Shown: one piece after another, positions 11,128-29,875 of the stretch
Numbering within the stretch: the first letter of the stretch is position 1
Layout of the letters: every line of letters begins with the position of its first letter
Origin: Olegusella massiliensis
GTDB lineage: Bacteria; Actinomycetota; Coriobacteriia; Coriobacteriales; Atopobiaceae
Direction: 5' to 3'
DNA: 64,000 nucleotides
Assembly (NCBI RefSeq): GCF_900078545.1
Contig: NZ_FLLS01000002.1
Coordinates: forward strand, 62,001-126,000
The notes under the pieces: model-generated
What the model saw: only the letters and a program-made list of their open reading frames with translations
Databases searched by the model: none
What the model was told of the DNA's origin: nothing
Program-made: the position numbers and the translations under genes

Positions 11128-11286
11128 CTCTATCCCTTTCATCTATACATGCCTTACAAGGCAAACTATCAGCAATTTTACTCGAACGCACCGTACCATG
11201 TACACGTGGGCATGCTCGGATTGAATACCGCACAAAGCAAGCAAAGCCCACATCTGCCCGCAAGCACAAAACTCATGCTCACAAGC

Positions 11287-11550
11287 TTATATGAGTATAC
11301 CCACAAGGCCGCGTTTGGCGACCTCGAGAATAACCATCGCAATAACGGGAGAAAAATCTAAGCCTCCCAAAGCTGGGATAAAACGCCTAAAGATATCTAC
11401 ATATGGACGAACAATCCTATCGAGCGCCCCTGCTACGTCACTGATAAGGCCATCACCTGACAGAGGAATCCAGCTCAAAATAACCCATACAACGATGAGC
11501 AGTTCATAAAAATCGAGCACTTTCATCAAAAAAGAAATAACTGCAAGCAT
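11287..11550 (-). CDS. yggT: YggT family membrane protein
   Basis: An 87-residue protein with two hydrophobic helices. The conserved YggT block between them includes LSWIPL, LDRIVRPYVDIFRRFIP and LDFSPVIAM. YggT proteins are integral membrane proteins linked to osmotic tolerance and, by gene neighbourhood, to division. The start follows AAGGAG with ideal spacing, and the stop of proC lies just upstream. The place between sepF/proC and divIVA is the usual one in actinobacteria and Firmicutes. Confidence 0.9.
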   Translation of the reverse strand: MLAVISFLMKVLDFYELLIVVWVILSWIPLSGDGLISDVAGALDRIVRPYVDIFRRFIPALGGLDFSPVIAMVILEVAKRGLVGILI

Positions 11551-11559
11551 GTGCGCTCC

Positions 11560-12366: not shown

Positions 12367-12367
12367 A

Positions 12368-13054: not shown

Positions 13055-13140
13055 CGCCTACTCCTTCTTCCACGCGGCAAGCCGCAAATTTCACTCATAT
13101 AGCACGTCTTAAACAAGACGGTCGTACGTACTCTGCCCCG

Positions 13141-13893
13141 CTATTCCAAATGAAATTCGGGACTAAACACCACACGACCCAATCGCAACAAGGTCGCCCC
13201 TTCTTCTACGGCAATCTCAAAATCACCGCTCATACCACAAGAAAGTATCTCTAAAGGCAGTCCTGTCACCTTATGCAACTGATCGCGAAGCTCACGTAAG
13301 CCTGAGAAAGTCCGCCGCGCCTCATCTCTATTTCCTGCCGGTGCCATGGTCATCAAGCCTTCAAGTGAAAGCTTGGGCAGAGCTGCGATTTCATTGGCGC
13401 AAGTCAACGCCTCGACCATTGTCACCCCAGACTTGGATTGCTCTCCAGATACGTTCACTTCAAGCAAAATCGCAAGCTGCTTGTCTCGAACCTGTGCACG
13501 CTTAGAAATCGCGCGGGCCAGCTCAAGAGACGATATTGAATGCACCAGCTCAACATCACAGTCAAGCACCTGATTGATTTTGTTTTTTTGCAGGTTGCCA
13601 ATCATGTGAAAACGCTGACGCGGCAAACCAGGCACATCTGCGAGCAATCCCAATTTGCGCCTCAGCTCTTGTGGACGGTTTTCGCCAAAGCATTCATAAC
13701 CCACCATATATGCCGAGACAAGCTGAGGTACATCAACCGTTTTTGAGACAGCAATAGAAGAAATCTCAGCAACATCTCTCGTAGCGCGTTGAGCAGCTGC
13801 CTCAATACGCTCTAAGATTTCAGTACGGCGTGCAGCGAGGAAGGTTTCGTAATCCTCAGATGCACGGTAGCTCTGATCGATAAGCGGATTCAT
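13141..13893 (-). CDS. yggS: YggS family PLP homeostasis protein
   Basis: A 250-residue fold-type III PLP-binding protein (PLPBP) involved in vitamin B6 and amino acid homeostasis. The PLP lysine lies in AVSKTVDV near residue 51. Other family marks are YECFGENRPQEL, HMIGNLQKNK and SCGMSGDFEIAVEEGATLLRLG. Enzyme activity is not known for this family. The gene has a strong GAGGAGGG ribosome site and lies between pgeF and sepF, its usual place in Gram-positive division clusters. Confidence 0.93.
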   Translation of the reverse strand: MNPLIDQSYRASEDYETFLAARRTEILERIEAAAQRATRDVAEISSIAVSKTVDVPQLVSAYMVGYECFGENRPQELRRKLGLLADVPGLPRQRFHMIGNLQKNKINQVLDCDVELVHSISSLELARAISKRAQVRDKQLAILLEVNVSGEQSKSGVTMVEALTCANEIAALPKLSLEGLMTMAPAGNRDEARRTFSGLRELRDQLHKVTGLPLEILSCGMSGDFEIAVEEGATLLRLGRVVFSPEFHLE

Positions 13894-13916
13894 AACACTT
13901 CCCTCCTCTACGAAAA

Positions 13917-14723
13917 CTATTTTGCCGCCATAAACGCTAGGGCACCATGGCGACCACAGTGACCGTGCTCAGCGCGATACGAAAAGAAACGATCTGTCGT
14001 ACTCGCCGTTGATTCCTCAACACTCACGATGCGTTCAGGGGCAACTCCCCCATCAAGCAACGCCGCACGCACAGCAAAGCCCAAATCTACATGGCAGCCG
14101 TCAGCTGCTGCTGCCTCACCAAACTCAGCTATAAATCGATGTGCCAAATCAGCGGAAACCTCATAGTCCATCTGTCCAATATGCGGGCCCACGTACGCAT
14201 TGACTTCGCTGGGATGCACGCCCGTCTCTGCACACAGCAGAGACACCGCTTTTTGAGAGATACGCGCAATACTTCCTCGCCACCCAGAATGCACGACGGC
14301 AAAGCCACCTGAGCACGCAAGAATGACAGGTACACAGTCAGCAAAGCAAAGCAAAACAGGCACATTGGGGACGGTACAGATGACACCATCAGCACCAGCT
14401 CGCGCTTCGTCAAAAGCTGCTGACCAAGCTTCGTTACTCTGCTCACTCAAAACAACTAAATGGTCACCATGAACCTGATGAGGATTGATGAGTTTGTCTG
14501 CATAATCTTCACAGCCCAATGCCTCAAGAGCAAGCTTGCGATTAGCGTCTACCACCTTTGGCTCATCGCCACAGGCATCCCCCAAGTTGAGAGAAGTAAA
14601 GGGAGCCTGCGAGCGGCCACCCGTGCGTTCCGTAAAGCTAAGTGTGACCCCGCCAGGACGAGCAAAATCGCCAAGCAGGGTCACACCATACGACTCGTGA
14701 CGGGAAAGAGTCGGCGCTTGCAT
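13917..14723 (-). CDS. pgeF: Peptidoglycan editing factor PgeF (YlmD/laccase-domain)
   Basis: A 268-residue member of the former multicopper polyphenol oxidase/YfiH family. PgeF hydrolyses UDP-MurNAc-L-Ser to correct mis-loaded precursors. The metal-binding motifs are visible: NPHQVHG, CFADCVPV, VVHSGWRGS and YVGPHIGQMDYEV. A longer frame runs into ftsZ and is hydrophobic and Pro-rich, unlike the family; the ATG at 14723, directly after the ftsZ stop, gives a family-like start. The ribosome site is weak, so coupling to ftsZ translation is likely. Confidence 0.9.
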   Translation of the reverse strand: MQAPTLSRHESYGVTLLGDFARPGGVTLSFTERTGGRSQAPFTSLNLGDACGDEPKVVDANRKLALEALGCEDYADKLINPHQVHGDHLVVLSEQSNEAWSAAFDEARAGADGVICTVPNVPVLLCFADCVPVILACSGGFAVVHSGWRGSIARISQKAVSLLCAETGVHPSEVNAYVGPHIGQMDYEVSADLAHRFIAEFGEAAAADGCHVDLGFAVRAALLDGGVAPERIVSVEESTASTTDRFFSYRAEHGHCGRHGALAFMAAK

Positions 14724-14724
14724 A

Positions 14725-15858
14725 CTAGATGCGGCTATTCCTGAGGAAGTCGGGAATGTCAAAAGCCTTGTCATTGCCCGACGGCTGAGGAGTGGAGGTG
14801 CGGGTGGTGGTCTGAGTGCTGCGAGAGCTAGAAGCAGCAGGACGGCTGGGGCGAGAAGGCCTACGGTCAACGTTCATCTCGGGCAGCTTCTCTTGGACAT
14901 TACCGCCATCAAAACCGGTAGCGATAACGGTCACGCGAACCTGATCGCCAAGACTCTCGTCAACAACGGTACCAAAGATGATGTTGGCCTCAGGGTCAAC
15001 ATTTTTAGCGACAACGTCTGCAGCATCGTTAATCTCTTGGATGCCCAAGTCCTTGTTGCCAGCAATGGAAAGCAGAACACGAGTTGCGCCATCAATAGAG
15101 CTCTCAAGCAGGCGGCTAGAAATGGCTTCTTCGGCAGCATCGACTGCACGATTGTCACCAGAAGCAGTACCGATACCCATCATTGCGGTGCCAGCACCCT
15201 TCATGATGGTAGTGACATCTGCAAAGTCGAGGTTAATCAAACCAGGAACAGTAATGAGGTCGGTAATACCTTGGGTGCCCTGGCAGAGGACATCATCTGC
15301 CATGTGGAAGGCCTCGAGCATCGTGGTCTTTTTCTCAGAAAGATCAAGGAGACGATCGTTGGGGATAACGATGAGGGTATCAACGTTCTCAGAGAGACGC
15401 TCGATACCATCAACAGCATTAGCAGAACGCTTACGACCCTCAAAGGTAAAGGGGCGCGTAACAACACCAACAGTCAAAGCGCCGAGATCATTTTTTGCAA
15501 TATCGGCAACAACGGGTGCGGCTCCTGTGCCTGTGCCGCCACCCTCGCCAGCCGTAATAAAGACCATATCGGAGCCGGCAAGTGCAGCCTTGATCTCATC
15601 ATGCGAATCCTCAGCAGCCTCAGCACCAACCTCAGGACGAGCGCCAGCACCCAGACCCTTGGTCAAATCAGATCCAATGTGCACCTTAATGTCAGCATCG
15701 GAAATAGCAAGCTGCTGTGCGTCCGTGTTGATTGCCACGAACTCGACACCACGAATTCCCTCTTCAATCATACGGTTGACAGCGTTCGTGCCGCCGCCAC
15801 CAACGCCAACCACCTTGATGACTGCAAGGTAATTGTTGAGGTTATCGTCGTTCGTCAT
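14725..15858 (-). CDS. ftsZ: Cell division GTPase FtsZ
   Basis: A 377-residue tubulin-like GTPase that forms the Z ring. The signature [11 protein letters not shown], the N-terminal [15 protein letters not shown] and the T7 segment [10 protein letters not shown] are intact. The C-terminus has a Ser/Thr/Arg linker and ends FDIPDFLRN, the conserved tail that binds SepF or FtsA. The ATG at 15858 is preceded by GGAGGTCCTACC. The frame stays open for 32 more codons to an upstream ATG at 15954 and would add a very basic extension; the strong ribosome site favours the shorter form. The upstream leader holds large inverted repeats. Confidence 0.96.
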
Positions 15859-16225
15859 GGTAGGACCTCCTGTTGTTTGTTGTACGACTCTTTGGTGCAC
15901 CTGTGCCTGTATTGCATGTGTGTTGCGTTTACGTACATTCCTGTTTTTTGCCATGTAGTACTTCTTTCTGCCGCGCCTCCGTGCATCGCCGCTTACGCGG
16001 CAGAACGCGCTTTAGAAGATTCGAGAAACACTAAACCTCAAGTTGACCTCGATGTTTGTTCTAAAGCGCGTTATGTTTGCACATGCGCGGAGTCACGTCA
16101 AGCAAAATTTTTTAAATTGTGGAAATTGCAGGAAAAAGCAGCTTATTTGCTTATTTATCCCGTCTTACCGTGAGTTTTTTTAATTATTTGGCTGGAACTG
16201 TGCTAAATGTCTCAAGGCAGATACT
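15859..16225. other. ftsQ-ftsZ intergenic region with nested inverted repeats
   Basis: No gene is seen here apart from the possible N-terminal extension of ftsZ. The region holds a 10-bp perfect inverted repeat (15966-15975 with 15996-16005) and, overlapping its end, a 14-bp perfect repeat (16004-16017 with 16059-16072). A TTGACG sits at about 16092-16097 on the minus strand, so a separate ftsZ promoter is plausible. Confidence 0.7.
15966..16072 (-). repeat. Two abutting perfect inverted repeats upstream of ftsZ
   Basis: The first pair is TTCTGCCGCG/CGCGGCAGAA with a 20-base loop. The second is AACGCGCTTTAGAA/TTCTAAAGCGCGTT with a 41-base spacer, and a further AAACA/TGTTT pairing lies inside. 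Neither is followed by a T-run, so a plain terminator is unlikely. The position 110-215 bases before the ftsZ start suggests an operator or a structured 5' leader. Confidence 0.75.
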
Positions 16226-17526: not shown

Positions 17527-18441
17527 CTATATCTCAAAACCGAGGAGCTTAAGCTCGGAATGTAAATCAACGGAACTATTTGCCAAGACTTCACTATGTA
17601 CACGATTCATCAAGGCAAGCACATCAGCTGCGCAGGCTCCACCACGATTGACCACATAATTTGCTTGGCTAGGATGCAATTGTGCGCCACCTTCACGAGC
17701 TCCGCGCAAACCACAACGTCTCACCAATTCATTCACCGACGCAGCACGTGGTTCTACAAAAAGCGCCCCACAACTCTGAGCACCTAAAGGCAAAATACTA
17801 CGCTCACCAAGATGCGTTTCCATCTTCTGAGCAATTGCCTCTACCTGAGCTGGCTGCAAAGAAAAAGTAACTTCGAGGATAATCTCGTCTGTTGGCAAAG
17901 AACACCACCGACGATCCCAATCAATCTCTGCAGCTGGACGCCGAACGAGTCCTACACCAGGTTTAAGGCTTACTACATCGTGCACGATACTACTCAGCCA
18001 GCGACGTTCAGTACCAGCATTCATTAAGAGTGCCCCGCCTACGCTACCTGGAATACCTGCGAGAAACTCCATACCAGAAAGTCCTGCTGTAAGAGCAGTT
18101 GAGCAGGCCTTAGCCAGACGAGTCGCAGCACCAGCAGTTACCATGCCTGTTGGGCCGTCTACACTGAGCTTTTCAAACTCCCCTGTCAGGACAATAACGC
18201 AACCACGGTAACCCTCATCAGAAGCAAGTATTGATGACCCACGGCCTAAAATAACCCAAGGCAGTTTCTGCATACTCAGCACTTCTAACGTACGCGAAAG
18301 TGCTGCATAGTCATGCGGAGCAACATAAAGCGCCGCGGCGCCACCAATGCGCACAGACGTCAAGCGAGACAGAGCTACGTCCCGTTTTACCTCAGCATGT
18401 ATCTTCCCCGAAAGGGCTATGTAGGCATTAAATACGCTCAC
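17527..18441 (-). CDS. murB: UDP-N-acetylenolpyruvoylglucosamine reductase MurB, divergent
   Basis: A 304-residue FAD enzyme that reduces UDP-GlcNAc-enolpyruvate to UDP-MurNAc. The FAD domain is clear: TSVRIGGAA, ILGRGSSIL, GLSGMEFLAGIPGSVGGALLMNAG. The C-terminal part has GLRGAREGGA and VDLHSELKLLGF, which keeps the late glutamate. The segment that normally reads CGSVF, with the serine (sometimes cysteine) that protonates the substrate, reads CGALF here: residue 226 is alanine, encoded by GCG. The YRxS segment is also altered. The start overlaps the murC stop (ATGA), and the gene is complete without frameshift. Confidence 0.85.
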   Translation of the reverse strand: MSVFNAYIALSGKIHAEVKRDVALSRLTSVRIGGAAALYVAPHDYAALSRTLEVLSMQKLPWVILGRGSSILASDEGYRGCVIVLTGEFEKLSVDGPTGMVTAGAATRLAKACSTALTAGLSGMEFLAGIPGSVGGALLMNAGTERRWLSSIVHDVVSLKPGVGLVRRPAAEIDWDRRWCSLPTDEIILEVTFSLQPAQVEAIAQKMETHLGERSILPLGAQSCGALFVEPRAASVNELVRRCGLRGAREGGAQLHPSQANYVVNRGGACAADVLALMNRVHSEVLANSSVDLHSELKLLGFEI

Positions 18442-19868
18442 AAGCTCTCGCTTGTCCCTTCCGCGTCACGCTCTCGTAGAGCATCAAGCAAAGCTGGCCC
18501 AACCTGAGTAACATCGCCCGCACCCTGAGTAATCACCAAATCACCTGGACGGCATAATTGGACAAGCTGGGAGATAAGCTTACGACGATTAGGCTGATAT
18601 TCCACCTGTTGAACATGCCCGTTGTCTTTGACCGAATTTGCAACCGTTTTACCCGAAACGCCAGGAATCGGCATTTCCCCAGCAGAAAAAACGTCCATCA
18701 CTACAAGCACATCAGCATTATCAAAAGCAGCGCCAAATTCACTCGCCAGCGCCTGAGTTCTGCTGTAGCGATGCGGTTGAAAAACGCAGACTACGCGTTC
18801 AAAGCCTAGTTTGGAAGCCGCAGTAAGGGTAGCCTCAATCTCAGTGGGATGGTGTCCATAATCATCAACCACAGTGATTCCTGCTACATCACCGACATGC
18901 GTAAAACGACGGTGGGCACCCTTGAACTCGGCTACAGCTGCAGCTGCCTTTTCAAGGTCAAGATTCAAAACGCCCGCTACCGCAAGAGCAGCTGTTGCAT
19001 TTGCCATATTGTGCTCACCTGGATTGGCGTGTAAACCAGAATGCACCGTCACACCACAAGGGCAGACCACATCAAAGTAACTCTGCAGGCCCCGCTGCGT
19101 CTCACTAGGCACACAGCGATAATCGACATTTTCACCAAAACCATAGGTCACGACCTTGCAACCTGTAGACTTGGCAAGTTCAACATAGTGGGGATTGTCA
19201 CCAAAGATAACAATGGTGCCCTCTTCGCCTACCAGCTCCATGAACTGACAAAAGGTCTTCTCGATATTCTCCAGCGTGCCGTAGTGATCGAGGTGATCGG
19301 CCTCAATGTTGGTTACAACAACCACATTGGGATTGAGAAAGAGAAAAGAGCCATCAGACTCATCTGCTTCGCAGACAAAGTAGCCACCAGAACCATTGCG
19401 ACCATTGGTGCCATATTCCTCAACGATGCCACCAATGAGGAAAGAAGGGTCACAACCTAGATGGTCAAGCATGGTGGCCACCAGAGAGCTTGTTGTAGTT
19501 TTTCCATGGGTGCCAGCAACGGCAATCGTCTTTGCACCCTCTCCCAGCGCAGAAAGCATCTGAGCACGACGCCAGACGGTAATACCCAGCTCACGCGCAC
19601 GAACAAGCTCGGGGTTAGTCTCGGGAATTGCGGTAGAAATAACAACCACATCGGGCTTGAGCTCGTCAATAGTTGCTGCTTGATGACCAATGCGGACATC
19701 AATGCCCGCATGCTCTAGGTCACGCACGTAACTCGAGTTCTTCAGATCAGAACCTGTGACCTTGCAACCCCGCTGAAAAAGAACAAGCGCAATACCACTC
19801 ATGCCTGCGCCACCGATACCAATAAAATGTGCACTCGAGAACTTAGGAGCCTGGGTAGTTTGAGTCAT
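18438..19868 (-). CDS. murC: UDP-N-acetylmuramate-L-alanine ligase
   Basis: A 476-residue Mur ligase that adds L-alanine to UDP-MurNAc using ATP. It has the N-terminal HFIGIGGAGMSGIA, the P-loop VAGTHGKTTTSS, the central EADESDGSF and DHLDHYG, and the C-terminal DDYGHHPTEIEAT. The ATG at 19868 follows GAAGAGGCTTAC; a frame open 28 codons further upstream lacks family similarity. In other genomes murC follows murG directly. Here 7 kb of opposite-strand genes lie between, so murC must have its own promoter in the roughly 280 bases before tetR. Confidence 0.95.
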   Translation of the reverse strand: MTQTTQAPKFSSAHFIGIGGAGMSGIALVLFQRGCKVTGSDLKNSSYVRDLEHAGIDVRIGHQAATIDELKPDVVVISTAIPETNPELVRARELGITVWRRAQMLSALGEGAKTIAVAGTHGKTTTSSLVATMLDHLGCDPSFLIGGIVEEYGTNGRNGSGGYFVCEADESDGSFLFLNPNVVVVTNIEADHLDHYGTLENIEKTFCQFMELVGEEGTIVIFGDNPHYVELAKSTGCKVVTYGFGENVDYRCVPSETQRGLQSYFDVVCPCGVTVHSGLHANPGEHNMANATAALAVAGVLNLDLEKAAAAVAEFKGAHRRFTHVGDVAGITVVDDYGHHPTEIEATLTAASKLGFERVVCVFQPHRYSRTQALASEFGAAFDNADVLVVMDVFSAGEMPIPGVSGKTVANSVKDNGHVQQVEYQPNRRKLISQLVQLCRPGDLVITQGAGDVTQVGPALLDALRERDAEGTSESL

Positions 19869-20075
19869 GTAAGCCTCTTCTCTTGCAAATACATTTTTAA
19901 ATACTTTAACGGATAGAGAAGTACTTGGTCGCCTACAGCAAACAGTTGCCATGAAAAGACCCTCTTATCTTGCCTCGTCACCTACTCAGCAGCGCGTCAT
20001 GACTTCATTTCGAAAGAGATTGTGTGCCGTCCAACGCACAAACAGTCCCAACGTAATGCCGCAAGAAAATCATGG

Positions 20076-20104
20076 TTGACATCTAAGTTAGCAAGCATTA
20101 ACTT
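20076..20104 (+). promoter_or_regulatory. tetR promoter
   Basis: TTGACA (20076-20081) is followed after 17 bases by TAACTT (20099-20104). An inverted repeat overlaps the spacer and the -10, as expected for autorepression. Confidence 0.6.
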
Positions 20105-20105
20105 A
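20084..20105. promoter_or_regulatory. Candidate TetR operator 1
   Basis: TAAGTTA and TAACTTA form a perfect 7-bp inverted repeat with an 8-base spacer over the -10 region of tetR. The half-site AGTTAG recurs in the palindrome in front of the transporter genes at 20805-20822. Confidence 0.6.
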
Positions 20106-20107
20106 CT

Positions 20108-20126
20108 GTGATAACAACGTTATCAC
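20108..20126. promoter_or_regulatory. Second palindrome in the tetR leader
   Basis: GTGATAAC and GTTATCAC form a perfect 8-bp inverted repeat around a 3-base centre, just downstream of the tetR promoter. It differs from the AGTTAG-type sites, so it may bind another regulator or be a variant operator. Confidence 0.5.
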
Positions 20127-20152
20127 CCTTGAAATCTGCACATAGGAGCAGT

Positions 20153-20776
20153 ATGGCAACCTTCGATAAAGCAATTGATCCAATGATTAAGGAGAGTGCA
20201 AAAGAAGAATTTCTAGAAAAGGGTTTCCTTAACGCATCTCTGCGTAAAATTTGCGCGAAGGCTGGCGTCACAACGGGAGCGTTGTACAAGCGTTACGGTG
20301 GAAAAGAAGACCTTTTCCAAGCACTGGTGCAGCCTACCGTGGACGATATCGACGCGGTCATTGCATCCAAGAGCATCAATTACTCCACAATGACAGATGG
20401 TCAGCTCTACGACATGTGGACGCTAACCGAAGGCTATATGGACTGGTGGTTCGAATTCATGATCGCCCGAAAAGATGGCTTCACACTGCTCGTCAAGTGC
20501 TCGGAGGGAACGCGCTATCAGGACTTCCAACACGAACTTGTCGAAAAAGTATGCGCGGAAACCTACAAGTGTTATCAAGCAGCAGCGGATCGCAGCCTTG
20601 CCAGAGTCGGCATCACTCCGCGGGAACTTCACGTGCTGACAACCGCATTCTGGAGCACGATGTTCGAACCTTTCATACATGATTTCACCGACGAGGAAAT
20701 CCGGCTCCACTGTCAGCTGACCATCCAATTCATCGATTGGCATCGCGCCCTTGGCTTTTCGGAGCCGAAGGCCTGA
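20153..20776 (+). CDS. TetR/AcrR family regulator
   Basis: A 207-residue DNA-binding repressor. The N-terminal helix-turn-helix (ASLRKICAKAGVTTGALYKRYGGKEDLFQAL) is typical of the family; the ligand-binding remainder is Trp/Tyr-rich and unassigned. The ATG at 20153 is preceded by AGGAG. It is the first gene of the plus-strand insertion in the dcw cluster. Palindromes lie both at its own promoter and before the ABC genes 60 bases downstream, which suggests it controls itself and the transport operon. The inducing ligand is probably the transported compound or a related metal complex, but this is inference. Confidence 0.85.
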   Translation: MATFDKAIDPMIKESAKEEFLEKGFLNASLRKICAKAGVTTGALYKRYGGKEDLFQALVQPTVDDIDAVIASKSINYSTMTDGQLYDMWTLTEGYMDWWFEFMIARKDGFTLLVKCSEGTRYQDFQHELVEKVCAETYKCYQAAADRSLARVGITPRELHVLTTAFWSTMFEPFIHDFTDEEIRLHCQLTIQFIDWHRALGFSEPKA

Positions 20777-20804
20777 TAAAGAAGAGTTTATTTTTTAGCT
20801 ATCG

Positions 20805-20822
20805 AGTTAGATAAATCTAACT
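20805..20822. promoter_or_regulatory. Candidate TetR operator 2, before the ABC/ECF operon
   Basis: AGTTAGAT and ATCTAACT form a perfect 8-bp inverted repeat with a 2-base centre, 15 bases before the GTG start of the first ABC gene. It shares the AGTTAG core with the repeat at the tetR promoter. Confidence 0.65.
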
Positions 20823-20837
20823 AAGAGAGGTGATTCA

Positions 20838-22568
20838 GTGTTTAAAAAAGTCCGACCATACATGGAAGGATACATGGGCTACACATACAAGGCAGTGGCG
20901 TGCGTCTGCATCGCCATCGTGTTGGGCGTCGTCCCATACTTCTTCCTGTATCAAATCCTTGTTCCACTAATCGCAGGACAATCGCTGGAAATGGGATACG
21001 TGCTGCTAATAGTGACGTGTACAGCGGTGTGTCTGGCGGGCAACGCGGTACTGTATGTGAAAGGCCTTGAATATTCCCATATCTGTGCCTATAACACGTT
21101 GAAGAATATCCGCACCATCCTGCAGCAAAAGCTGGAGATGCAGCCGCTTGGCACCATTCGTGAACTAGGCAACGGACGCATCAAAAAGATGTTCACCGAT
21201 GACATCGAAACCATCGAGATCTTGCTTGCGCACGCCATTCCCGAAGGCATCGGAAACTTGCTCGTACCAGTTATTGTGATTTTAGCCATGTTCTTCGTGG
21301 ACTGGAAACTTGCCCTGCTATGCATCGCCTCCCTGCCGTTGGGCCTGCTGGCCATGGGCATGATGTACAAGGCGGGCATGAGTCGCATGGACGCCTACTA
21401 CGGCTCAGCAGCAAAGATGAACAACACCATCATCGAGTACATCAACGGCATGGAGGTCGTAAAGATCTTCAACCGCGACGGCGAAAGCTATAAGCGCTTT
21501 AAGACCGACATCACGAGCTACCGCGACTTCACGCTGGCGTGGTACAAGGTCTGCTGGCCCTGGATGGCGCTCTATTCCAGCATCATCCCTTGTGTGGCAC
21601 TGTTCACGATTCCCGTCGGTGCTTGGTTTGTGTTACAGGGCTGGAGCACGCTGGCCAACCTCATCCTAGTTGTGTGCATGTCGTTTGCAGTGGGGTCACC
21701 ACTGCTGAAGGCCATGAGCTTCGGCGGTAAGTTCCCGCAACTCAACTACAAGATCGACGAGCTGGAGAAGCTCATTGAGCATCCTGCGCTCAAGCAATCC
21801 GAGCGCAGCTTTGAGGGCGCAAACCACGATATCCGTTTCGAGAATGTGCACTTCACCTACAAGGATACCGAGGTCATCCATGGCATCAACCTGGAACTGA
21901 ATGAAGGCACCATGACAGCACTTGTAGGCGAGAGCGGCAGCGGGAAATCCACCCTGGCAAAGCTGCTGGTACACTTCTACGACCTTGACAGCGGACGCAT
22001 CACACTGGGCGAGCAGGACCTAACCGACATGCGCATCGAGGCACTGAACGATCAGATCTCCTACGTTTCTCAGGAGCAGTTCCTGTTCAACACCAGTCTG
22101 TACGAGAACATCCTCATTGGCCGACCTGAGGCCAGCCGTGAGGAGGTGTTAGAAGCTGCCCGCCGTGCACAATGCGATGAGTTCCTTGCGCGTCTTTCCC
22201 AAGGAATCGACACGCCCGCAGGCGATGGTGGAAAGATGTTATCCGGCGGCGAGCGACAGCGCATCTCTCTCGCGCGGGCATTACTGAAGGATTCTCCGGT
22301 CATCGTGCTGGACGAGGCAACTGCATTCATCGACCCGGAAAACGAGGAGAAGATGAACGCCGCCATCTCCGAGATTATAAAGGGCAAGACAGTGTTGGTC
22401 ATCGCCCACCGGTTGCACACCATTACAGGGGCAAACAAGATAGTTGTGCTAAAAGGCGGCACCATAGATGCGCAAGGCACGCACGAAGAGCTGCTGGACG
22501 CTTCGGAGGAATACCGACGCCTGTGGGCGGCTGCGCAGGAGAGCGCCGCATGGGAGGTAAGGGCATGA
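20838..22568 (+). CDS. ABC half-transporter, exporter fold, first of a pair
   Basis: A 576-residue protein with a six-helix type IV (exporter-fold) membrane domain followed by an ATPase domain. Walker A is GESGSGKST at about residue 364, the signature is LSGGERQRISLARALL and Walker B is VIVLDEAT followed by AFIDPE; the H-loop is VIAHRLH. It starts at GTG with GAGAGGTGATTCA before it. The neighbouring half-transporter overlaps it by four bases, so a heterodimer is likely. Exporter-fold pairs of this kind (IrtAB, YbtPQ) can import metallophores; next to an ECF S/T/A set, import is as plausible as export. Codon use is richer in G and C than in the flanks. Confidence 0.85.
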   Translation: MFKKVRPYMEGYMGYTYKAVACVCIAIVLGVVPYFFLYQILVPLIAGQSLEMGYVLLIVTCTAVCLAGNAVLYVKGLEYSHICAYNTLKNIRTILQQKLEMQPLGTIRELGNGRIKKMFTDDIETIEILLAHAIPEGIGNLLVPVIVILAMFFVDWKLALLCIASLPLGLLAMGMMYKAGMSRMDAYYGSAAKMNNTIIEYINGMEVVKIFNRDGESYKRFKTDITSYRDFTLAWYKVCWPWMALYSSIIPCVALFTIPVGAWFVLQGWSTLANLILVVCMSFAVGSPLLKAMSFGGKFPQLNYKIDELEKLIEHPALKQSERSFEGANHDIRFENVHFTYKDTEVIHGINLELNEGTMTALVGESGSGKSTLAKLLVHFYDLDSGRITLGEQDLTDMRIEALNDQISYVSQEQFLFNTSLYENILIGRPEASREEVLEAARRAQCDEFLARLSQGIDTPAGDGGKMLSGGERQRISLARALLKDSPVIVLDEATAFIDPENEEKMNAAISEIIKGKTVLVIAHRLHTITGANKIVVLKGGTIDAQGTHEELLDASEEYRRLWAAAQESAAWEVRA

Positions 22569-24304
22569 TCGCATTCATCAGCAGAATCCTGAAGGTTGCG
22601 CAGGACTTGCGCAGGAGGATCTACGGGGCCGCCGTGTGCTCTTTCTTGAAGGCACTTCTGGGCAAAGCGCCCATCGTGGTTATGTTCTTCCTGATCATGG
22701 GCTTTTTAAATAACACCGTCACGAACATGAGCTGCCTCTGGGCGGGCATCGCGATCGTAACCTGCATCGCATTGCAGTGCATGTTCCAGAACATCGCTGA
22801 CCGACTCCAATCCGCAGCTGGCTTCGAGATTTTCGCGGATATGCGCCTAAAGCTAGGTGAACACCTACGGAAGATGCCTATGGGCTTCTTCACGGAGGGC
22901 AACATCGGACGTATAAGCTCCGTTCTTTCCACTGATATGAACTTTATCGAAGAGAACCTGATGATGGTACTGGCCGACTTGATGAGTTACATCTTTTCCG
23001 CTGTCATTTTCATCCTGTTCCTGTTCGTCTTCGATTGGCGGCTAGGGTTGCTTGGCCTGCTCATCAGCAGCATCGTGTTTTGCATCGGTGAGGCTATGAA
23101 GAAGAATACGCTGATGCACTCCAACGAGCGCCAAGAAACAAGTCAGCAGCTCACCGAGGCTGTCATCGACTTCACTGAGGGCATGGGCATCATCAAGACC
23201 TACAACATGCTGGGTGAGAAGTCTAAGGAGTTAACGGAAAGCTTCCAAGCATCATGCGACAAGAACTTGAGCTTCGAATTCGATTTCGCGCCTTGGGCGA
23301 AAGCACTCAACCTTACCTGCGGGATTGGCAGCGCCACAATGCTCGGCGCCATGTGGCTGCTATACCAAAGAGAATCTCTATCGCTTGCTTTCTTCATCGG
23401 TATGCTGCTGTTTGTGTTCGAGCTGTTCAGGCCGCTCAAAGCCTTTTACGGGCAGGTAGCTCGGCTCACCGTGATGGACGCCTGCTTAGATCGCATTGAG
23501 GCAATATTTGCTGAACCAGAGCTTTCGGACAGCGGCAACAAGGCAATCCCAGCTAACGGCTCACCAGAAATCGAGTTTGAGGACGTCAGCTTTGCCTACG
23601 ACAACAAAGATGTCCTTCACAAAATCAGTTTTGTAGCGCAACGTAACACCATGACGGCACTCGTCGGACCCTCTGGCGGCGGAAAATCAACCATCGCCAG
23701 CCTTCTCGCCCGCTTCTGGGACGTGCGAGAAGGCAGTATACGACTTCGCGGTAAGAACATCCGCGAGGTACCGCTTGCCCAGGTAATGGACAATATCAGC
23801 ATGGTATTCCAGCGGGTCTACTTGTTCCAAGACACGATATATAACAACATCGCCATGGGTCGCACGGACGCCTCAAAAGAAGAAGTGTACACAGCTGCAA
23901 AGAAGGCTCGATGCTACGACTTTATCATGGCACTGCCACAAGGCTTCGACACAATGGTCGGCGAGGGCGGCATGTCACTTTCTGGCGGTGAGCAGCAGCG
24001 CATCTCCATTGCGCGTTGCATTCTCAAGGACGCCCCCATCATCGTCTTGGACGAGGCCACAGCCAGCGTAGACGCGGATAACGAGAGGTGCATCCAGGAT
24101 GCAATATCTGAGCTCGTGAATAACAAGACTGTGCTGGTCATCGCTCACCGCCTACACACAATCGCTGGTGCTGACCAGATTCTGGTGGTGAACGACGGAC
24201 AAATCGTCGAGCGCGGGGATCACGAGACGCTCATAACGCAAGGCGGCATCTACGCGGACATGGTCCAAAAAAGAGCTTCCATGCGTAGTTTCATGGACAA
24301 ATAG
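22565..24304 (+). CDS. ABC half-transporter, exporter fold, second of a pair
   Basis: A 579-residue partner of the preceding gene: an N-terminal membrane domain of about 300 residues, then an ATPase with Walker A GPSGGGKST near residue 368, signature LSGGEQQRISIARCIL, Walker B IIVLDEAT followed by ASVDAD, and H-loop VIAHRLH. Both nucleotide-binding domains of the pair keep their motifs, so neither looks degenerate. The start ATG overlaps the upstream TGA (ATGA) and is preceded by GGGAGG; a longer frame inside the upstream gene is rejected. Ten bases separate it from the ECF S-component gene. Confidence 0.85.
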   Translation: MIAFISRILKVAQDLRRRIYGAAVCSFLKALLGKAPIVVMFFLIMGFLNNTVTNMSCLWAGIAIVTCIALQCMFQNIADRLQSAAGFEIFADMRLKLGEHLRKMPMGFFTEGNIGRISSVLSTDMNFIEENLMMVLADLMSYIFSAVIFILFLFVFDWRLGLLGLLISSIVFCIGEAMKKNTLMHSNERQETSQQLTEAVIDFTEGMGIIKTYNMLGEKSKELTESFQASCDKNLSFEFDFAPWAKALNLTCGIGSATMLGAMWLLYQRESLSLAFFIGMLLFVFELFRPLKAFYGQVARLTVMDACLDRIEAIFAEPELSDSGNKAIPANGSPEIEFEDVSFAYDNKDVLHKISFVAQRNTMTALVGPSGGGKSTIASLLARFWDVREGSIRLRGKNIREVPLAQVMDNISMVFQRVYLFQDTIYNNIAMGRTDASKEEVYTAAKKARCYDFIMALPQGFDTMVGEGGMSLSGGEQQRISIARCILKDAPIIVLDEATASVDADNERCIQDAISELVNNKTVLVIAHRLHTIAGADQILVVNDGQIVERGDHETLITQGGIYADMVQKRASMRSFMDK

Positions 24305-24314
24305 GAGGAAAAAC

Positions 24315-24905
24315 ATGGAAGAAAACAACAAACTTGCCGTAAAGGACCTCATCAATATTGGCGTGTTCACCTCACTCTACTTCATGGTGTTTTTCGTCGT
24401 CAGCTTCATCGGGTATATCCCAATCCTGTTGGTTCTTCTTCCTGCCATCTGCCCCATCGTTGCGGGAATCCCGTATATGCTCTTCCTCACAAGGGCGAAG
24501 AAATTTGGCATGGTAACCATCATGGCACTTATCCTAGGCCTGCTGGAGCTGGTGATGGGACGACCTTGGCCGGTACTCTTCATCGCAATTGCTGCTGGAT
24601 TGTGCGCCGACCTGATCCTTAAGGCTGGCCAATACAAGAGTGTGAAATCCTGTGTACTCTCTTCTGGCATTCTTTCCTTGTGGATGATAGGCATGGCGCT
24701 ACCCTTGTTCTTCAGCTATCGCGACAACTACCTTGCCGGCCTTGTCAGTAGCTACGGTCAAGCCTACGTAGACACCCTTGCTAGCCTCACACCAGATTGG
24801 GCGTTGTTCGTATTGATCGCGCTGTGCTTTGTGGGCGGCATTATCGGCGGTCTTATGGGCTCAGCAGTACTGAAGAAGCACTTCAGGAAGGCGGGTATGG
24901 CCTGA
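24315..24905 (+). CDS. MptD/Trep_Strep family ECF transporter S component
   Basis: A 196-residue integral membrane protein with about six hydrophobic helices. Its pattern (DLINIGVFTSLYFMVFF, GIPYMLFL, ADLILKAGQYKS, SLWMIGMALPLFF) matches the family called MptD or Trep_Strep, as I recall it from genome annotation. S components bind the substrate and pair with a T component and two ATPases. The substrate of this family has not, to my knowledge, been established. It starts after AGGAGG and overlaps the T-component start (TGATG). Confidence 0.75.
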   Translation: MEENNKLAVKDLINIGVFTSLYFMVFFVVSFIGYIPILLVLLPAICPIVAGIPYMLFLTRAKKFGMVTIMALILGLLELVMGRPWPVLFIAIAAGLCADLILKAGQYKSVKSCVLSSGILSLWMIGMALPLFFSYRDNYLAGLVSSYGQAYVDTLASLTPDWALFVLIALCFVGGIIGGLMGSAVLKKHFRKAGMA

Positions 24906-25627
24906 TGCAGGCTGAGTTAAGTACATTCCAAATCACTGGCGAGCGTTCGCTTCTGGATCCCAGGGTTGGACTGCTCGCCATTCTGACCGTAAGTTCCGTG
25001 ATGATTGATGGCAGCATCGTCGGTATCGACTTCTGGCTGCGTCTAGTCTGTTGCATCCTGCCGCTGCTCGGGCTCTTGGCACTCCAACGTTGGCAGTTCG
25101 CTGCAGTTTACACAGCGCTCTATGTCTTCGCATTATTAATGGAGGGTGCAGCCTTCCGACTAACCAGCGGTGCACTCAACATGATTGTCATGATATTAGG
25201 TGGGCTTATCTCACGATTCCTTGCACCCATCGTGATGGGGTACTGTGTGATGCAGAGCACCACTGTTGCCGAGTTCATCGCCGCTATGGAACGTATGCGC
25301 ATACCGTCTACAGTGACGATTCCCTTATCAGTGATGTTCCGTTTCTTTCCAACAATCGCCGAAGAGAATAGCGCCATCACCGATGCTATGCGGATGCGGC
25401 AGGTTACCGGTATGCATTCAGGTTTCGTGAAGCGCATAGAGTACGAACTAGTCCCCGTCATGATGAGTACCGTGCGTATCGCCGACGAGCTCTCGCAGGC
25501 AGCATTGACTAAGGGGCTCGGCGGCAGCGTGAGACGCACACACATCTGCGAGGTCGGCTTCCGCGCACGCGACTATATCCTGCTGACACTGCTCATAGCA
25601 GTACTAGTTCTGTTTGTGGTGACTTGA
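24905..25627 (+). CDS. ECF transporter T component (EcfT/CbiQ-like)
   Basis: A 240-residue transmembrane coupling protein. It has four to five hydrophobic helices and, near the C-terminus, the segments MRMRQVT and ADELSQAALTKGLGG, matching the two coupling helices with Ala-Arg-Gly-type motifs that dock on the ATPases. The ATG overlaps the S-component stop; an upstream extension seen in the same frame lies inside that gene and is rejected. Because the S, T and A genes are contiguous, this is a group I (dedicated) ECF system rather than one sharing a common energy module. Confidence 0.85.
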   Translation: MQAELSTFQITGERSLLDPRVGLLAILTVSSVMIDGSIVGIDFWLRLVCCILPLLGLLALQRWQFAAVYTALYVFALLMEGAAFRLTSGALNMIVMILGGLISRFLAPIVMGYCVMQSTTVAEFIAAMERMRIPSTVTIPLSVMFRFFPTIAEENSAITDAMRMRQVTGMHSGFVKRIEYELVPVMMSTVRIADELSQAALTKGLGGSVRRTHICEVGFRARDYILLTLLIAVLVLFVVT

Positions 25628-25628
25628 C

Positions 25629-27116
25629 ATGATCGAGTTCAAAGACGTCTATTATGCCTATCGTGTAACGGACTCGGACGGAAGCGTTCGGATGCGTTCG
25701 GCCCTGAAAGACGTGAGCCTGTCCATCCAAACTGGTGAGTTCGTTGTCCTCACTGGCAACTCGGGCTGTGGGAAAACAACTGCCTGTCGACTAGTCAACG
25801 GGCTCATTCCCCATTACTTCGAGGGAAATCTGAAAGGCGAGGTTCTGCTGGCGGGCAAAAACGTTACCGCACAGCCCCTCTACGAGACGGCCAAACGCGT
25901 GGGCAGCGTCTTCCAAAACCCTCGCAACCAGTTCTTCAATGTAGATACCACGAGTGAATTGGCCTTCGCCGCAGAAAACCAGGGACGAGACCCAAAGCAA
26001 ATTAAACATAACATTGCTAATACAGCCGAGCTACTCGACCTAAAACCGCTGTTGAGACGGAATATGTTCGCACTGTCTGGCGGCGAGAAGCAGAAGATTG
26101 CCTGCGGTAGCGTAGCTGTAGCAGGCAGCGACGTAATTGTGCTGGACGAGCCGTCGTCCAACTTGGATATGGAGAGCATCAAGGCACTGCGAAAGACGCT
26201 CGCCCTATGGAAGGAGCAGGGCAAGACGGTCATCATTGCAGAGCACCGACTCTTCTTTTTGAAAGGACTTGCCGATCGTGTGCTAGTCTTCCGCGATGGA
26301 GAGATTATCCAGTCGCTGGACGCGGATGTATTCGCCGCGATGACCACTAGGGAATGTGCGGGGATGGGTCTTCGGACGACAGATCTAGGCTCTGTTTCCT
26401 TCCCCACCCGAAGCACGAGTAGAGCCCCCATGATAAGGCTCGAGGATGTCTGTTTCCATTACTCAGGCACACTCGGTATAGATATTCCGGACTTAGCATT
26501 CCCCCAAAGCCACATCACAGCCATAGTTGGACGGAACGGTGCCGGCAAGAGCACGCTGGCACGAACGCTTTGCGGGTTGAACAGACGAGCAAAAGGCACA
26601 GTGTTCCTAGACGGAAAAGAAATTCCCATTGGCAAGATGCTGTCTTTCTGCTACATGGTCATGCAAGACGTGAACCACCAGCTATTCACTGACAGTGTGC
26701 TGGAAGAAGTGTTAATCAGTGTGCCAGGGGCAATCCCAAAAGATCTGCGCGAGAAAAAGGCACACAAGGCGCTTCAACTCATGGATATGGAAGACCTTTC
26801 GGAGCAACATCCAATGGCACTCTCAGGTGGCCAGAAACAGCGCGTGGCCATTGCCAGCGCACTAGCCGCAGATGAGGAGATACTAATTTTCGACGAGCCT
26901 ACAAGTGGATTCGACTACCGCCACATGCGCCAGACCGCTCAAGCACTGAAGATGCTTTGCAATCTTGGGAAGACAACTCTCATCATTACCCATGACCTGG
27001 AACTCATCGCATTGTGCGCTGACTATGTTGTGCAGATGGATGGAGGATACGCCACTGAAAGCTATTTCATAAACAACGAGACTGCCTCGCGAATAGCCTC
27101 GTTTTTTCTGAACTAG
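25629..27116 (+). CDS. ECF double ATPase (fused EcfA1-EcfA2)
   Basis: A 495-residue protein with two ABC ATPase domains. Domain 1 has Walker A GNSGCGKT at residues 43-50, signature LSGGEKQK and Walker B VIVLDEPSSNLD. Domain 2 has Walker A GRNGAGKST at about residue 301, signature LSGGQKQR and Walker B ILIFDEPTSGFD. Fusion of both ATPases in one chain is common for dedicated ECF systems. It starts one base after the T-component stop. It is the last gene of the insertion and runs convergent to murG. Confidence 0.9.
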   Translation: MIEFKDVYYAYRVTDSDGSVRMRSALKDVSLSIQTGEFVVLTGNSGCGKTTACRLVNGLIPHYFEGNLKGEVLLAGKNVTAQPLYETAKRVGSVFQNPRNQFFNVDTTSELAFAAENQGRDPKQIKHNIANTAELLDLKPLLRRNMFALSGGEKQKIACGSVAVAGSDVIVLDEPSSNLDMESIKALRKTLALWKEQGKTVIIAEHRLFFLKGLADRVLVFRDGEIIQSLDADVFAAMTTRECAGMGLRTTDLGSVSFPTRSTSRAPMIRLEDVCFHYSGTLGIDIPDLAFPQSHITAIVGRNGAGKSTLARTLCGLNRRAKGTVFLDGKEIPIGKMLSFCYMVMQDVNHQLFTDSVLEEVLISVPGAIPKDLREKKAHKALQLMDMEDLSEQHPMALSGGQKQRVAIASALAADEEILIFDEPTSGFDYRHMRQTAQALKMLCNLGKTTLIITHDLELIALCADYVVQMDGGYATESYFINNETASRIASFFLN

Positions 27117-27146
27117 CTTGGAACATGGGGTTCGGAGTATACCTCA

Positions 27147-27168
27147 AGGTCAGAAGTGCATCTGACCT
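27147..27168. terminator. Hairpin between the ECF ATPase gene and murG
   Basis: AGGTCAGA and TCTGACCT form a perfect 8-bp stem with a 6-base loop between convergent genes. There is no T-run on either side, so termination is only possible, not shown. Confidence 0.4.
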
Positions 27169-27201
27169 GTGTCAATCTATGCATCCGTGTGTCCAACGAC
27201 C

Positions 27202-28326
27202 TTAACGACGAGCGGTGGCTACCACTTGGTCTGCCAAAGCTGCAGCAGCAGTGGCACCGCCAAGGCCTTGGGCAGCGTGGCGCATCTGGGCGCGAGCATC
27301 GGCATCCGCAAGTAACCCGATGAGCTCATCAGCAAAGCTCTGCTCATCAATAGCTTTGTCGGTATACATACGAGCTGCCCCCGCATCCACCAACAAATGC
27401 GCGTTGGTCTCCTGATGATTTTCTGTTGCAAAAGGATAAGGGACTAATACCGAAGGCACTGCAAGCGCTGCAATTTCTGCAATAGATGAAGCACCTGCGC
27501 GGGATACCACAAGATCGGCAGCTGCTAGTGCCCCTCCCATATCTTCTATGTACGGCAACAGTTGCCAGCGAGCCTTCTCCTCTGCTGTCAAATCCAAAGC
27601 AGCAAGTGTCTCGTCAAAGTCCTTAGCACCTGTCGAGTGGATGATGTAGAGCTTATCCTGTGCCAGTAGCTGTTTTTTAAGCTCGACAATACGATGATTG
27701 AGATGGCGAGCACCAAGACTACCGCCAAAGACTAAAAGCACGGTGGCATCCTCAGGGACACCAAACGTAGCACGGCCTGCAGCTCTACTCGCCTGAACCA
27801 CGGCGCGACGCACAGGATTTCCCGTCAGTACCACTTGGGTCTGCTCGCCTGTTTTACCCGTAAAGGCAGAGCGCGCTGCAGAAAATGACAAGCAAAGACA
27901 AGACGCGTGTTTGGCACAGAGTTTATTGGCGAGCCCTGGCACAGAATTTTGCTCGTGAAGCACATATGGCACGCCCCGTGATGCGCACCAACGCAGCAAG
28001 GGCATTTCAACGTAAGCACCAAAGCCAACAGCAACATCAGGCATACCTTTGTCAGCCATAATCTTGCCTACTGCGCCCTGAGCCTTGTGCATATGCCAAA
28101 CTGCACTCAAGGCAGTCCAAGGACGACTGCGATTAAAACCCGTTACACGAATGGGCACAAAATCAAAACCTGCAGCTGGTACCAGCTGGGCCTCCAGACG
28201 AGTTGATTGTCCAAAGAAAAGCACCTCATGACCGCGAGAAGCAAGTTCATCAGCAAGCGCTAGTGCAGGATTGATGTGACCTGCAGTACCGCCCGCAGCA
28301 ATAGCAATCTTGAGCTTATCTCCCAC
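27202..28326 (-). CDS. murG: UDP-GlcNAc:lipid I transferase MurG
   Basis: A 374-residue GT28 glycosyltransferase that makes lipid II from lipid I at the inner face of the membrane. Conserved features: IAAGGTAGHINPALALA, HEQNSVPGLANKL, GGSLGAR, and SRAGASSIAEIAALAVPSVLVPYP with ATENHQ. The GTG at 28326 is preceded by GGAG at 8 bases and overlaps the ftsW stop; the longer frame to 28389 lies inside ftsW. In the usual dcw order murC would follow; here the next gene downstream is on the other strand. Confidence 0.94.
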   Translation of the reverse strand: MGDKLKIAIAAGGTAGHINPALALADELASRGHEVLFFGQSTRLEAQLVPAAGFDFVPIRVTGFNRSRPWTALSAVWHMHKAQGAVGKIMADKGMPDVAVGFGAYVEMPLLRWCASRGVPYVLHEQNSVPGLANKLCAKHASCLCLSFSAARSAFTGKTGEQTQVVLTGNPVRRAVVQASRAAGRATFGVPEDATVLLVFGGSLGARHLNHRIVELKKQLLAQDKLYIIHSTGAKDFDETLAALDLTAEEKARWQLLPYIEDMGGALAAADLVVSRAGASSIAEIAALAVPSVLVPYPFATENHQETNAHLLVDAGAARMYTDKAIDEQSFADELIGLLADADARAQMRHAAQGLGGATAAAALADQVVATARR

Positions 28327-29875
28327 GTCGATCACTCCTTCTCTCACGAGTCGAATTGTTACGTTTGGGACGGAGGCGATCTGCCGCATCTGGTCCCAAG
28401 TCTATTCTTCTGCGTCCATAGGCATCTTCGCTCATGCGAGCACGATTTAGCAAATCTGTACGATTAGCGCGTGGCTGAGTAGCTGAATTACTACTTCCAC
28501 CTTCGTATACTTGAAACCGTGGACGAGCAGAGCTGGACGTGAGCGGCGTACTTTGTGTGAGCGGTGTACTTAACTGACGAGCCGAACGCGGTCGTGCTTC
28601 TCCAACCATGCCACTATCTTCATAGCTGTAAGCTGCGCGACCACGAGAGGCAAGCGAGAAATCTTCACGACGACGGTCAGACTCTGTCTCTTCTAAGCGT
28701 GAATGCAGAGCTACTGAGCTAACCACACCTACGGTCATCAATGTTGAAATAATTGAAGATCCACCGTAAGACAAAAAAGGCACGGGCTTGCCTGTCATGG
28801 GCATAATTGCTAAGACGCCACAGATATTAACAAAGAGCTGAATGACCATCATCGATACGCTACCTGCAGCAATAAGCCTGCCAGCAAGGTCAGGCGCATT
28901 GCGAGATATGCGCATACCTGCCCAAAAGATGACCGCAAACCCTGCAACCACACCCAAGGTGCCTACAAGACCACATTCTTCTCCTACTACAGCAAAAATA
29001 AAGTCGTTGTGAGCAAAGGGAAGATAGGAGTATTTTTGTCTACTTGCTCCAATGCCGACGCCAAAAATACCGCCAGCCGCAAAGGCATAAAAACCTTGGA
29101 TAATCTGATATCCCGTATCCAGAGGATCGGACCAGGGATTCAAGACCGTAAGAATACGCTGACGCGAATAAGCATCTTTCATGGAATATGCAAAGAAAGC
29201 TACAAGGAGAGCGCCCGCAAGCATAACAAGGAACTTGCCTGGTACACCGCTTAGATAGGCCATAACCAAAAGCGTTGCTACACAAATCATCGTTGTACCC
29301 TTATCAGGCTGAATAAGGATGAGTGCCAAGGGTAGACCAATACCAACCACAGAGAGCCAAACAAATTTTTTAAAGGAAATAGAGTCGTCTTCAAAGTATG
29401 CGTGCGCAAGATTGGCCCCTGTGAGCACGATGACAATTTTTGCAAACTCGGACGGTTGAAATCTAAAACCAGCAATTGCAATCCAACGAGTAGCACCATA
29501 GGCATCAGAACCAGATGAGGTGAATTTCACAATAAGCAACAGTACTACGGTAATGACCCAAAGTGCTGACAGCAGCTTAACACCCCAAATATGGTAATCA
29601 ACCTTTGCGAGAAAGACCAAAATCACCAGTCCAATAGCAGCATACTTAAGCTGGCGTGAAACAAAAAAAGTCGAATCATTATTAAAGTTTTTACTCGTGA
29701 GCGCCATAATGGACGAGGCAGAATAAATCATCACCAAGCCAAAAAGAAAAAGCGCCAAGGATGCTACCAAAAACAGCGTCAGAGGTCGTGCAAAACGCTC
29801 GGGACGTCCACTAATAGCACGCTCGATTCTTCCTCTTTGGCGCGAAGACACCTCACGCGCGGTGCTTCTATTCAT
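28316..29875 (-). CDS. ftsW: Septal peptidoglycan polymerase FtsW
   Basis: A 519-residue SEDS-family lipid II polymerase with about ten transmembrane helices. Family marks include YSASS near the first helix, FQPSEFAK, the loop PFAHNDFIFAVVGEE and VPFLSYGGSS. The C-terminal cytoplasmic tail of about 120 residues is rich in Arg, Ser and Thr and is longer than in many homologs. The ATG at 29875 follows GGAGGTCTGCAGC and overlaps the murD stop. It works with the transpeptidase encoded by ftsI further upstream in the same cluster. Confidence 0.95.
   Translation of the reverse strand: MNRSTAREVSSRQRGRIERAISGRPERFARPLTLFLVASLALFLFGLVMIYSASSIMALTSKNFNNDSTFFVSRQLKYAAIGLVILVFLAKVDYHIWGVKLLSALWVITVVLLLIVKFTSSGSDAYGATRWIAIAGFRFQPSEFAKIVIVLTGANLAHAYFEDDSISFKKFVWLSVVGIGLPLALILIQPDKGTTMICVATLLVMAYLSGVPGKFLVMLAGALLVAFFAYSMKDAYSRQRILTVLNPWSDPLDTGYQIIQGFYAFAAGGIFGVGIGASRQKYSYLPFAHNDFIFAVVGEECGLVGTLGVVAGFAVIFWAGMRISRNAPDLAGRLIAAGSVSMMVIQLFVNICGVLAIMPMTGKPVPFLSYGGSSIISTLMTVGVVSSVALHSRLEETESDRRREDFSLASRGRAAYSYEDSGMVGEARPRSARQLSTPLTQSTPLTSSSARPRFQVYEGGSSNSATQPRANRTDLLNRARMSEDAYGRRRIDLGPDAADRLRPKRNNSTRERRSDRRGR

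Follow-up and report, generated by a model that had tools for sequence, protein, structure and literature searches.

Why would a pair of exporter-fold ATP-binding cassette (ABC) half-transporters and a complete energy-coupling factor (ECF) importer be encoded side by side behind a single TetR-family regulator, and what would they carry? The question is raised by a locus of Olegusella massiliensis lying in a 64,000-nucleotide stretch of contig NZ_FLLS01000002.1 (positions 62,001 to 126,000; here the window, whose own numbering is used throughout). Six plus-strand genes at 20153-27116 encode the regulator followed by five packed transport proteins, whose reading frames are all open, in the order ABC-A, ABC-B, MptD/Trep_Strep S component, T component and double ATPase, as a first-pass annotation of this DNA had described. 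On the evidence below we consider it likely, with moderate confidence, that the five genes constitute one unit for the use of a metal-loaded chelator made by other organisms, most likely one of the thiazoline/phenolate yersiniabactin-equibactin kind. For the window copy we infer the ligand class, the direction of transport by the ABC pair, and both the role and the ligand of the TetR protein.

The arrangement of the genes suggests a single operon because they overlap or are separated by short gaps. ABC-A (20838-22568, +, GTG start, 576 aa) overlaps by 4 nt with ABC-B (22565-24304, +, ATG start; the open reading frame [ORF] list begins it at 22523, an upstream GTG), followed by the genes for the S component (24315-24905, +), the T component (24902-25627, +) and the double ATPase (25629-27116, +). 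The same set recurs around most of the MptD genes examined. PF09605, the Pfam family of the S component, exceeded its cut-off in 24/140 genomes from the family to which the window belongs, in 49/391 from the Clostridia (the class of G151, which carries the Lachnotalea locus L117) and in 0/14 well-known control genomes. In the 40 stretches examined from each of the two lists, mostly the best-scoring matches, there were 45 (family) and 46 (Clostridia) S genes, with a T component and a double ATPase nearby in 43/45 and 46/46 cases, respectively.

At least two ABC half-transporters were found within 8 kb of the MptD gene in 36/45 family and 35/46 clostridial cases, i.e., 71/91 in total (some stretches are near-copies, and counts of module loci are not independent events), compared to 0/53 control loci, which are generic importers and not matched S-component loci. 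Of the 20 cases without such a pair, five are no more than 7 kb from a stretch end, and in L061 a single ORF encodes both half-transporters. The 53 controls are those of at least 19 kb among 77 ABC-ATPase loci from a scan of named genomes with generic ABC motifs, in which MptD was present only in L079, L080 and L081 of 80 loci; two of the 77 (L085 and L086) gave a faint match to the S profile (E 2e-4 and 3e-4). Since the ABC pair accompanies 71/91 MptD loci and none of the controls, we rule out that the two transport systems are chance neighbors. Two plasmids, one of 20.7 kb from Corynebacterium and one from Subdoligranulum, also carry all five genes together. Separately, an MptD gene is located at 8001-8579 of L301, an IMG/VR contig catalogued as viral.

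Further evidence for a common task comes from protein fusions. The second copy of the module in the same genome (L037, G000:C2:1104000-1123900, at about 8883-15900) encodes a TetR protein, S, T, a fused double ATPase/ABC-A protein and ABC-B. The double ATPase and ABC-A form one open frame of about 1,080 to 1,110 residues in six loci (L037, L065, L069, L071, L072 and L074), five of which lie outside the window's genome; L071 and L072 are near-copies. Pfam analysis of five of the fusions (all but L072) identified three ABC_tran domains and one ABC_membrane domain in each. At the fusion junctions examined there was no start codon with a Shine-Dalgarno-like stretch, except that L065 has a GTG, preceded by GAGG, located 21 residues ahead of the half-transporter match. 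L068, a doubtful seventh candidate, was set apart: its junction contains a start codon accompanied by a Shine-Dalgarno-like stretch, and its S component is distant. The S components of the six fusion loci form one clade (support 100/99) that spans three genera (g1, g15 and g35). In L061, both ABC half-transporters are fused head to tail in a frame of about 1,350 residues (9339-13403) beside the ECF set.

A shared polypeptide sets the two machines at 1:1, which is strong evidence that they serve the same purpose. The suggestion of the first-pass annotation that two energy-coupled machines act on behalf of one compound is hence borne out by both the recurrent pairing and the covalent joining of double ATPase and half-transporter in paralogues. 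We found no description of an ECF double ATPase fused to an exporter-fold half-transporter in the open-access literature; the new element here is this single polypeptide, present in the second copy of the same genome and in five relatives. A further locus of this genome (L038, G000:C1:13000-32900, at 5690-10284, on a 50.8-kb contig) encodes a TetR protein, ABC-A, ABC-B and a shortened S component; no T component or ATPase was found in it, and it is apparently a decayed third copy.

What kind of transporter is the ABC pair? Among the bacterial PDB rows shown, the best for ABC-A were 6p6i chain A (YbtPQ) and IrtA, with 294 bits each, and the best for ABC-B was YbtQ with 292 bits, compared to 272 for MsbA; eukaryotic double-length proteins, with two matched stretches each, outrank the bacterial rows for both. 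A tree of 69 ABC proteins, with Escherichia coli MsbA, MdlA, MdlB, CydC and CydD as exporter references (Sav1866, TmrAB, BmrCD and IrtAB lie outside it), splits these five from YbtP, YbtQ and nearly all module proteins with 99 SH-aLRT support. Two proteins of a second pair beside the module in L270 fall among the exporters. ABC-A groups with YbtP (93, below the starred level of support), and ABC-B belongs to a group of 17 (99) that includes six proteins linked to nonribosomal peptide synthetase (NRPS) genes; the reference branches are long and the position of YbtQ is unsure. By both PDB ranking and tree, the half-transporters are closer to YbtPQ than to the exporters, i.e., judged by their sequences the pair is YbtP/YbtQ-like rather than MsbA-, MdlAB- or CydCD-like, in agreement with the resemblance to YbtPQ and IrtAB proposed initially.

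The remaining three proteins make up an ECF importer. The S component matches both PF09605 (E 2.4e-60) and TIGR02185 (146 bits, cut-off 76), a family annotated as putative ECF S component only, without a ligand. Structure prediction, a check that the first-pass annotation had suggested, points to the same fold: the model (built from five sequences; pLDDT 85, pTM 0.79) had ECF S components at ranks 1 to 6 in VIA-align (Z 11.0 to 8.3), with 5edl at the top (Z 11.0, 4.1 Å over 167 residues) and ThiT (10.1) and PanT (9.2) among the top rows. Two methane monooxygenase chains (Z 8.2) ranked next, and the rows after them, down to Z 5.4, were S components apart from one unrelated chain (Z 6.0). Z values below about 13 are common for helical bundles, and the argument is the run of S components at the top rather than the Z value; Foldseek returned nothing at E≤0.001, the best S component having E 0.81 and probability 0.84. 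Most S components of known structure in the ranking have vitamins as ligands, those named being thiamin, riboflavin, biotin, folate and pantothenate. The T component belongs to the EcfT/CbiQ family (PF02361, E 4e-14; PDB EcfT chains, E 6e-7). In the double ATPase, A and A′ in one polypeptide with two ABC_tran stretches, Walker A, Q loop, signature and Walker B can be read in both halves, and all four nucleotide-binding domains of the module appear canonical by eye.

The cargo class can be approached through relatives that sit within synthesis loci. As a marker for yersiniabactin/pyochelin/equibactin-type assembly we used the thiazolinyl imide reductase (TIGR01761), which was over cut-off in 8/391 Clostridia. 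PF09605 was present in all eight of these genomes versus 41/383 of the others (Fisher p 4e-8), and in 7/8 the reductase and MptD genes lie on the same contig no more than about 21 kb apart: 3 kb in G335; 1 and 6 kb in G514; 8 and 8 kb in G431 (two loci); 9 kb each in G399, G313 and G284; and 21 kb in G554. An S component, a double ATPase and at least one ABC half-transporter are found near the NRPS in six of the eight (G335, G313, G284, G514, G431 and G399; the ABC pair of G313 lies on the adjacent stretch, and for G284 coverage extends to one half-transporter only). In the Bacilli (class of G162, which carries the Enterococcus locus L151), 14/398 genomes had a reductase over cut-off, and MptD was located near the NRPS in 6/7 of those examined, the exception being G770; T component and double ATPase follow the S gene in G670, G698 and G621. 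A Salmonella plasmid carries NRPS, reductase, thioesterase, YbtP/YbtQ-like genes, S, T and double ATPase in one row, with the S and YbtQ-like genes broken.

The window S component is 44% and 45% identical to the NRPS-linked S proteins of G335 and G670, respectively, and the ABC pair of L038 shares about 60% identity with its NRPS-linked counterpart in G431. In the S tree, the window protein falls in a 36-row group (91/97, below the starred level) together with six NRPS-linked rows, and NRPS linkage shows 12 changes over the tree, at least seven of which are forced by starred branches. Omitted from the tree were the short S of L038 and three sequences (two of L268, one of L280) that duplicate retained rows. 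As to its labels, the L280 protein (G534), unlabelled as NRPS linked, is identical to the NRPS-linked S of L232; L274 has an NRPS with no reductase seen; and L006 is represented by a single fragment of a broken gene.

Some neighbors of the modules bear on the cargo. DtxR-family genes, which encode the iron-dependent repressor type, were found in 10/101 module loci (one of them NRPS linked, L226) versus 0/77 controls, and fit a metal-related cargo. Genes for PF14196 (aminothiazoline carboxylate hydrolase), sought with a profile built from module matches, lie near the module in 8/121 stretches (one marginal, L077) versus 0/77 controls: directly after ABC-B in L050, L051 and L265 to L268, and also near it in L079. 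They are perhaps a clue to thiazoline ligands or their breakdown, but we treat them as a lead only, since the hydrolase occurs in 51/140 family genomes and is absent from that of O. massiliensis. Among other genes recorded near modules, a methyltransferase cluster occurred in 9/101 loci versus 1/77 controls, and ZIP-family metal transporter genes near L261, L262 and L296 (ZIP cluster, 3/101 versus 1/77 controls).

The five genes in the window have the make-up of an equibactin-type module, clustering an S component, a T component and a double ATPase with two YbtPQ-like half-transporters. In the equibactin report, eqbH-J of Streptococcus equi ICESe2 are described as a siderophore importer and eqbK and eqbL as YbtPQ-like (Heather et al. 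2008, PMC3672683); eqbHIJ deletion prevented the iron-overload phenotype and lowered 55Fe accumulation. Our locus thus resembles eqbH-L in having a three-gene importer (permeases plus ATPase) adjoining two YbtPQ-like half-transporters, and differs from the equibactin locus in having no synthesis genes, a TetR protein instead of the DtxR-like EqbA, and the order ABC-ABC-S-T-double ATPase. In G670 the order is thioesterase, 233-aa ORF, adenylation enzyme, NRPS, reductase, ORF, NRPS, S, T, double ATPase, ABC-A, ABC-B and a dehydrogenase-like ORF (assigned by eye), which agrees with the functions given in the figure legend of that paper (Te, ppt, A, NRPS, Red, P, ATP, ABC and Re).

Comparison with other systems gives a similar picture of shared parts. 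The pair is like YbtPQ in consisting of two exporter-fold half-transporters, in its best bacterial PDB rows and in its side of the tree, but ABC-A is 32% identical to a plasmid-borne YbtQ and a 7.3-kb E. coli stretch around ybtPQ has no ECF genes. The exporter fold is shared with IrtAB as well; IrtA carries a FAD/siderophore-interaction domain, whereas the Pfam matches of ABC-A include neither a FAD nor a siderophore-interaction domain. YbtPQ and IrtAB are described as importers, IrtAB of mycobactin (PMC8386196). LhaSTA, the ECF heme importer of Staphylococcus lugdunensis (PMC7299338), is likewise a stand-alone S-T-A importer for an iron source, with a different ligand. In addition, in a Clostridioides difficile element a thiazolinyl imide reductase is preceded by two ABC transporters, an AraC regulator, an ATPase, an ECF protein and a membrane protein (PMC6814731), and an equibactin-like NRPS with an ECF importer is reported in S. 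lugdunensis (PMC12709192). The ABC/ECF pairing and the siderophore link are hence already known in pieces; our literature search found no work that identifies MptD as the S component in systems of this kind or brings these pieces together.

These comparisons revise three statements of the first-pass annotation. The system is not as uncharacterized as it had held, given that eqbH-L share the described make-up and have been tested by deletion; a separate, vitamin- or cofactor-like cargo for the ECF part does not agree with the deletion data, in which the siderophore-import phenotype belongs to eqbHIJ and loss of eqbKL did not block it (PMC3672683); and the cargo, said to be beyond inference from the sequence, can be narrowed to a class from relatives.

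The module in the window is not itself a producing locus. Queries for NRPS, reductase, thioesterase and dehydrogenase matched nothing in the window (among synthesis genes, only the reductase was sought genome-wide), and the reductase was over cut-off in 0/140 family genomes, that of O. massiliensis included; weak matches occurred in 13/140, the one in the window's genome reaching 31.5 bits for a cut-off of 188.8. The module may therefore work like the transport part of an equibactin-type locus, and because no maker of the thiazoline type was found in the family, the bacterium is probably a scavenger of metallophores made by others, in keeping with the initial remark that no biosynthetic gene is present and the compound may be taken from elsewhere.

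How might the parts cooperate? We propose that the S component would bind the metal chelate at the outer face and that T and the double ATPase would drive its release into the cell. The YbtP/YbtQ-like pair would act on this chelator too, serving as a second import route or returning the emptied form to the outside; on this point the evidence is divided, as the YbtPQ/IrtAB relatives import and the eqbKL data would agree with export. A cycle of import and return of the emptied chelator would account for both the retention of the two machines in the absence of synthesis and the fusions. If the inference is right, many anaerobes without synthesis genes would use foreign metallophores via MptD modules. 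The thiazoline link also provides the MptD family with a concrete, testable ligand class and a reason for its usual YbtPQ-like partner, and the fusion makes the role of eqbKL beside eqbHIJ directly testable.

A number of observations weigh against this reading. The window copy is under TetR control, and a search for DtxR-family genes across the window found none. The fusion was found in the paralogue, the window copy being unfused. Deletion of eqbKL left the equibactin phenotype intact, with a twofold lower supernatant activity for which the authors considered possible export (PMC3672683), and eqbH, eqbI and eqbJ are apparently S, T and double ATPase as judged from gene order and the labels of the paper, not from sequences. 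NRPS linkage is not uniform either: G554 has S, T and double ATPase near the NRPS and no ABC pair in the stretches examined; in G226 the YbtPQ-like pair beside the NRPS lacks an accompanying S gene, the MptD genes being on a different contig; and in G911, G778 and G709 neither T nor double ATPase was found adjacent to S. NRPS-linked rows are 17/110 of the S tree and scattered, such that other MptD proteins may carry other ligands, and the S profile had no match to PDB sequences at E≤1.

The alternative that survives best is a narrower form of the scavenging reading, in which import of the chelate falls to the ECF part, with the ABC pair exporting the emptied chelator rather than acting as a second importer. 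We regard it as a tenable possibility, though held tentatively. The weaker supernatant and unaffected phenotype of the eqbKL mutant (PMC3672683) would suit it, a second importer for one ligand in the same operon would be redundant, and the fusion to the ECF ATPase in paralogues ties the ABC half to the ECF part; yet the nearest characterized relatives, YbtPQ and IrtAB, import (PMC8386196), and the pair is kept in copies without synthesis genes, where there is no self-made chelator to export. A bolder version, to which we would give only a rather low probability, is a composite coupled transporter in which the ECF importer and a tethered ABC pair alternate on one chelator, loaded in and emptied out; the fusion protein of the second copy would then be the covalent form of a complex that is noncovalent in the window copy. 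If so, a nonproducing bacterium would use a few scavenged siderophore molecules catalytically.

Heme or another metal complex, e.g., cobalamin, is an unlikely cargo. An ECF heme system does exist in LhaSTA (PMC7299338), and DtxR-family neighbors would suit any iron source, but the family is linked to thiazoline siderophore synthesis, and no heme gene was recognized among the neighbor clusters present in at least 3 of 87 non-NRPS loci (five representatives assessed by Pfam, the rest by eye). Finally, it is very improbable that the ABC pair is a drug or peptide exporter merely sharing a regulator with an unrelated ECF vitamin importer: the exporter fold, TetR control, which is common for drug pumps, and the vitamin ligands of most S components of known structure would be compatible with it, but it is weakened by the double-ATPase/ABC-A fusion and the tree grouping with YbtP/YbtQ (in a tree whose references include no Gram-positive heterodimeric exporters), and is further disfavored by the pairing frequency, by two canonical ABC sites where heterodimeric drug exporters often have one degenerate site, and by the family's link to thiazoline synthesis.

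Under the scavenging reading, the TetR-family protein (20153-20776, +; PF00440, E 1e-12), which is encoded 61 nt upstream of ABC-A and outside 20838-27116, would sense the ligand or a related compound and repress through a perfect palindrome between the two genes, AGTTAGAT-AA-ATCTAACT (20805-20822), a candidate operator. Its 16-nt core has one exact match in the window. Two short inverted repeats upstream of the TetR gene (20084-20126), TAAGTTA-8-TAACTTA and GTGATAAC-3-GTTATCAC, are further candidate operators. Both the palindrome and the TAAGTTA-8-TAACTTA repeat are also present in L042, a locus from the second genome of the genus that has the same gene order and place and five transport proteins 96 to 100% identical to those of the window. 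Across the module set the regulators are of the TetR or AraC types.

The module sits between murC and murG, on the strand opposite to that of the cell wall genes (mur/fts cluster, window 17527-28389). A murG search retrieved the locus in 12/13 genomes; murC follows murG in all 10 besides O. massiliensis and its close relative G031, with gaps of up to about 390 nt, and among the murG loci compared only these two have an insertion at the murC/murG site. Elsewhere in the window, at 5309-8310, two tandem genes were recognized by eye as resembling papain-like aminopeptidases of the PepC/bleomycin hydrolase type.

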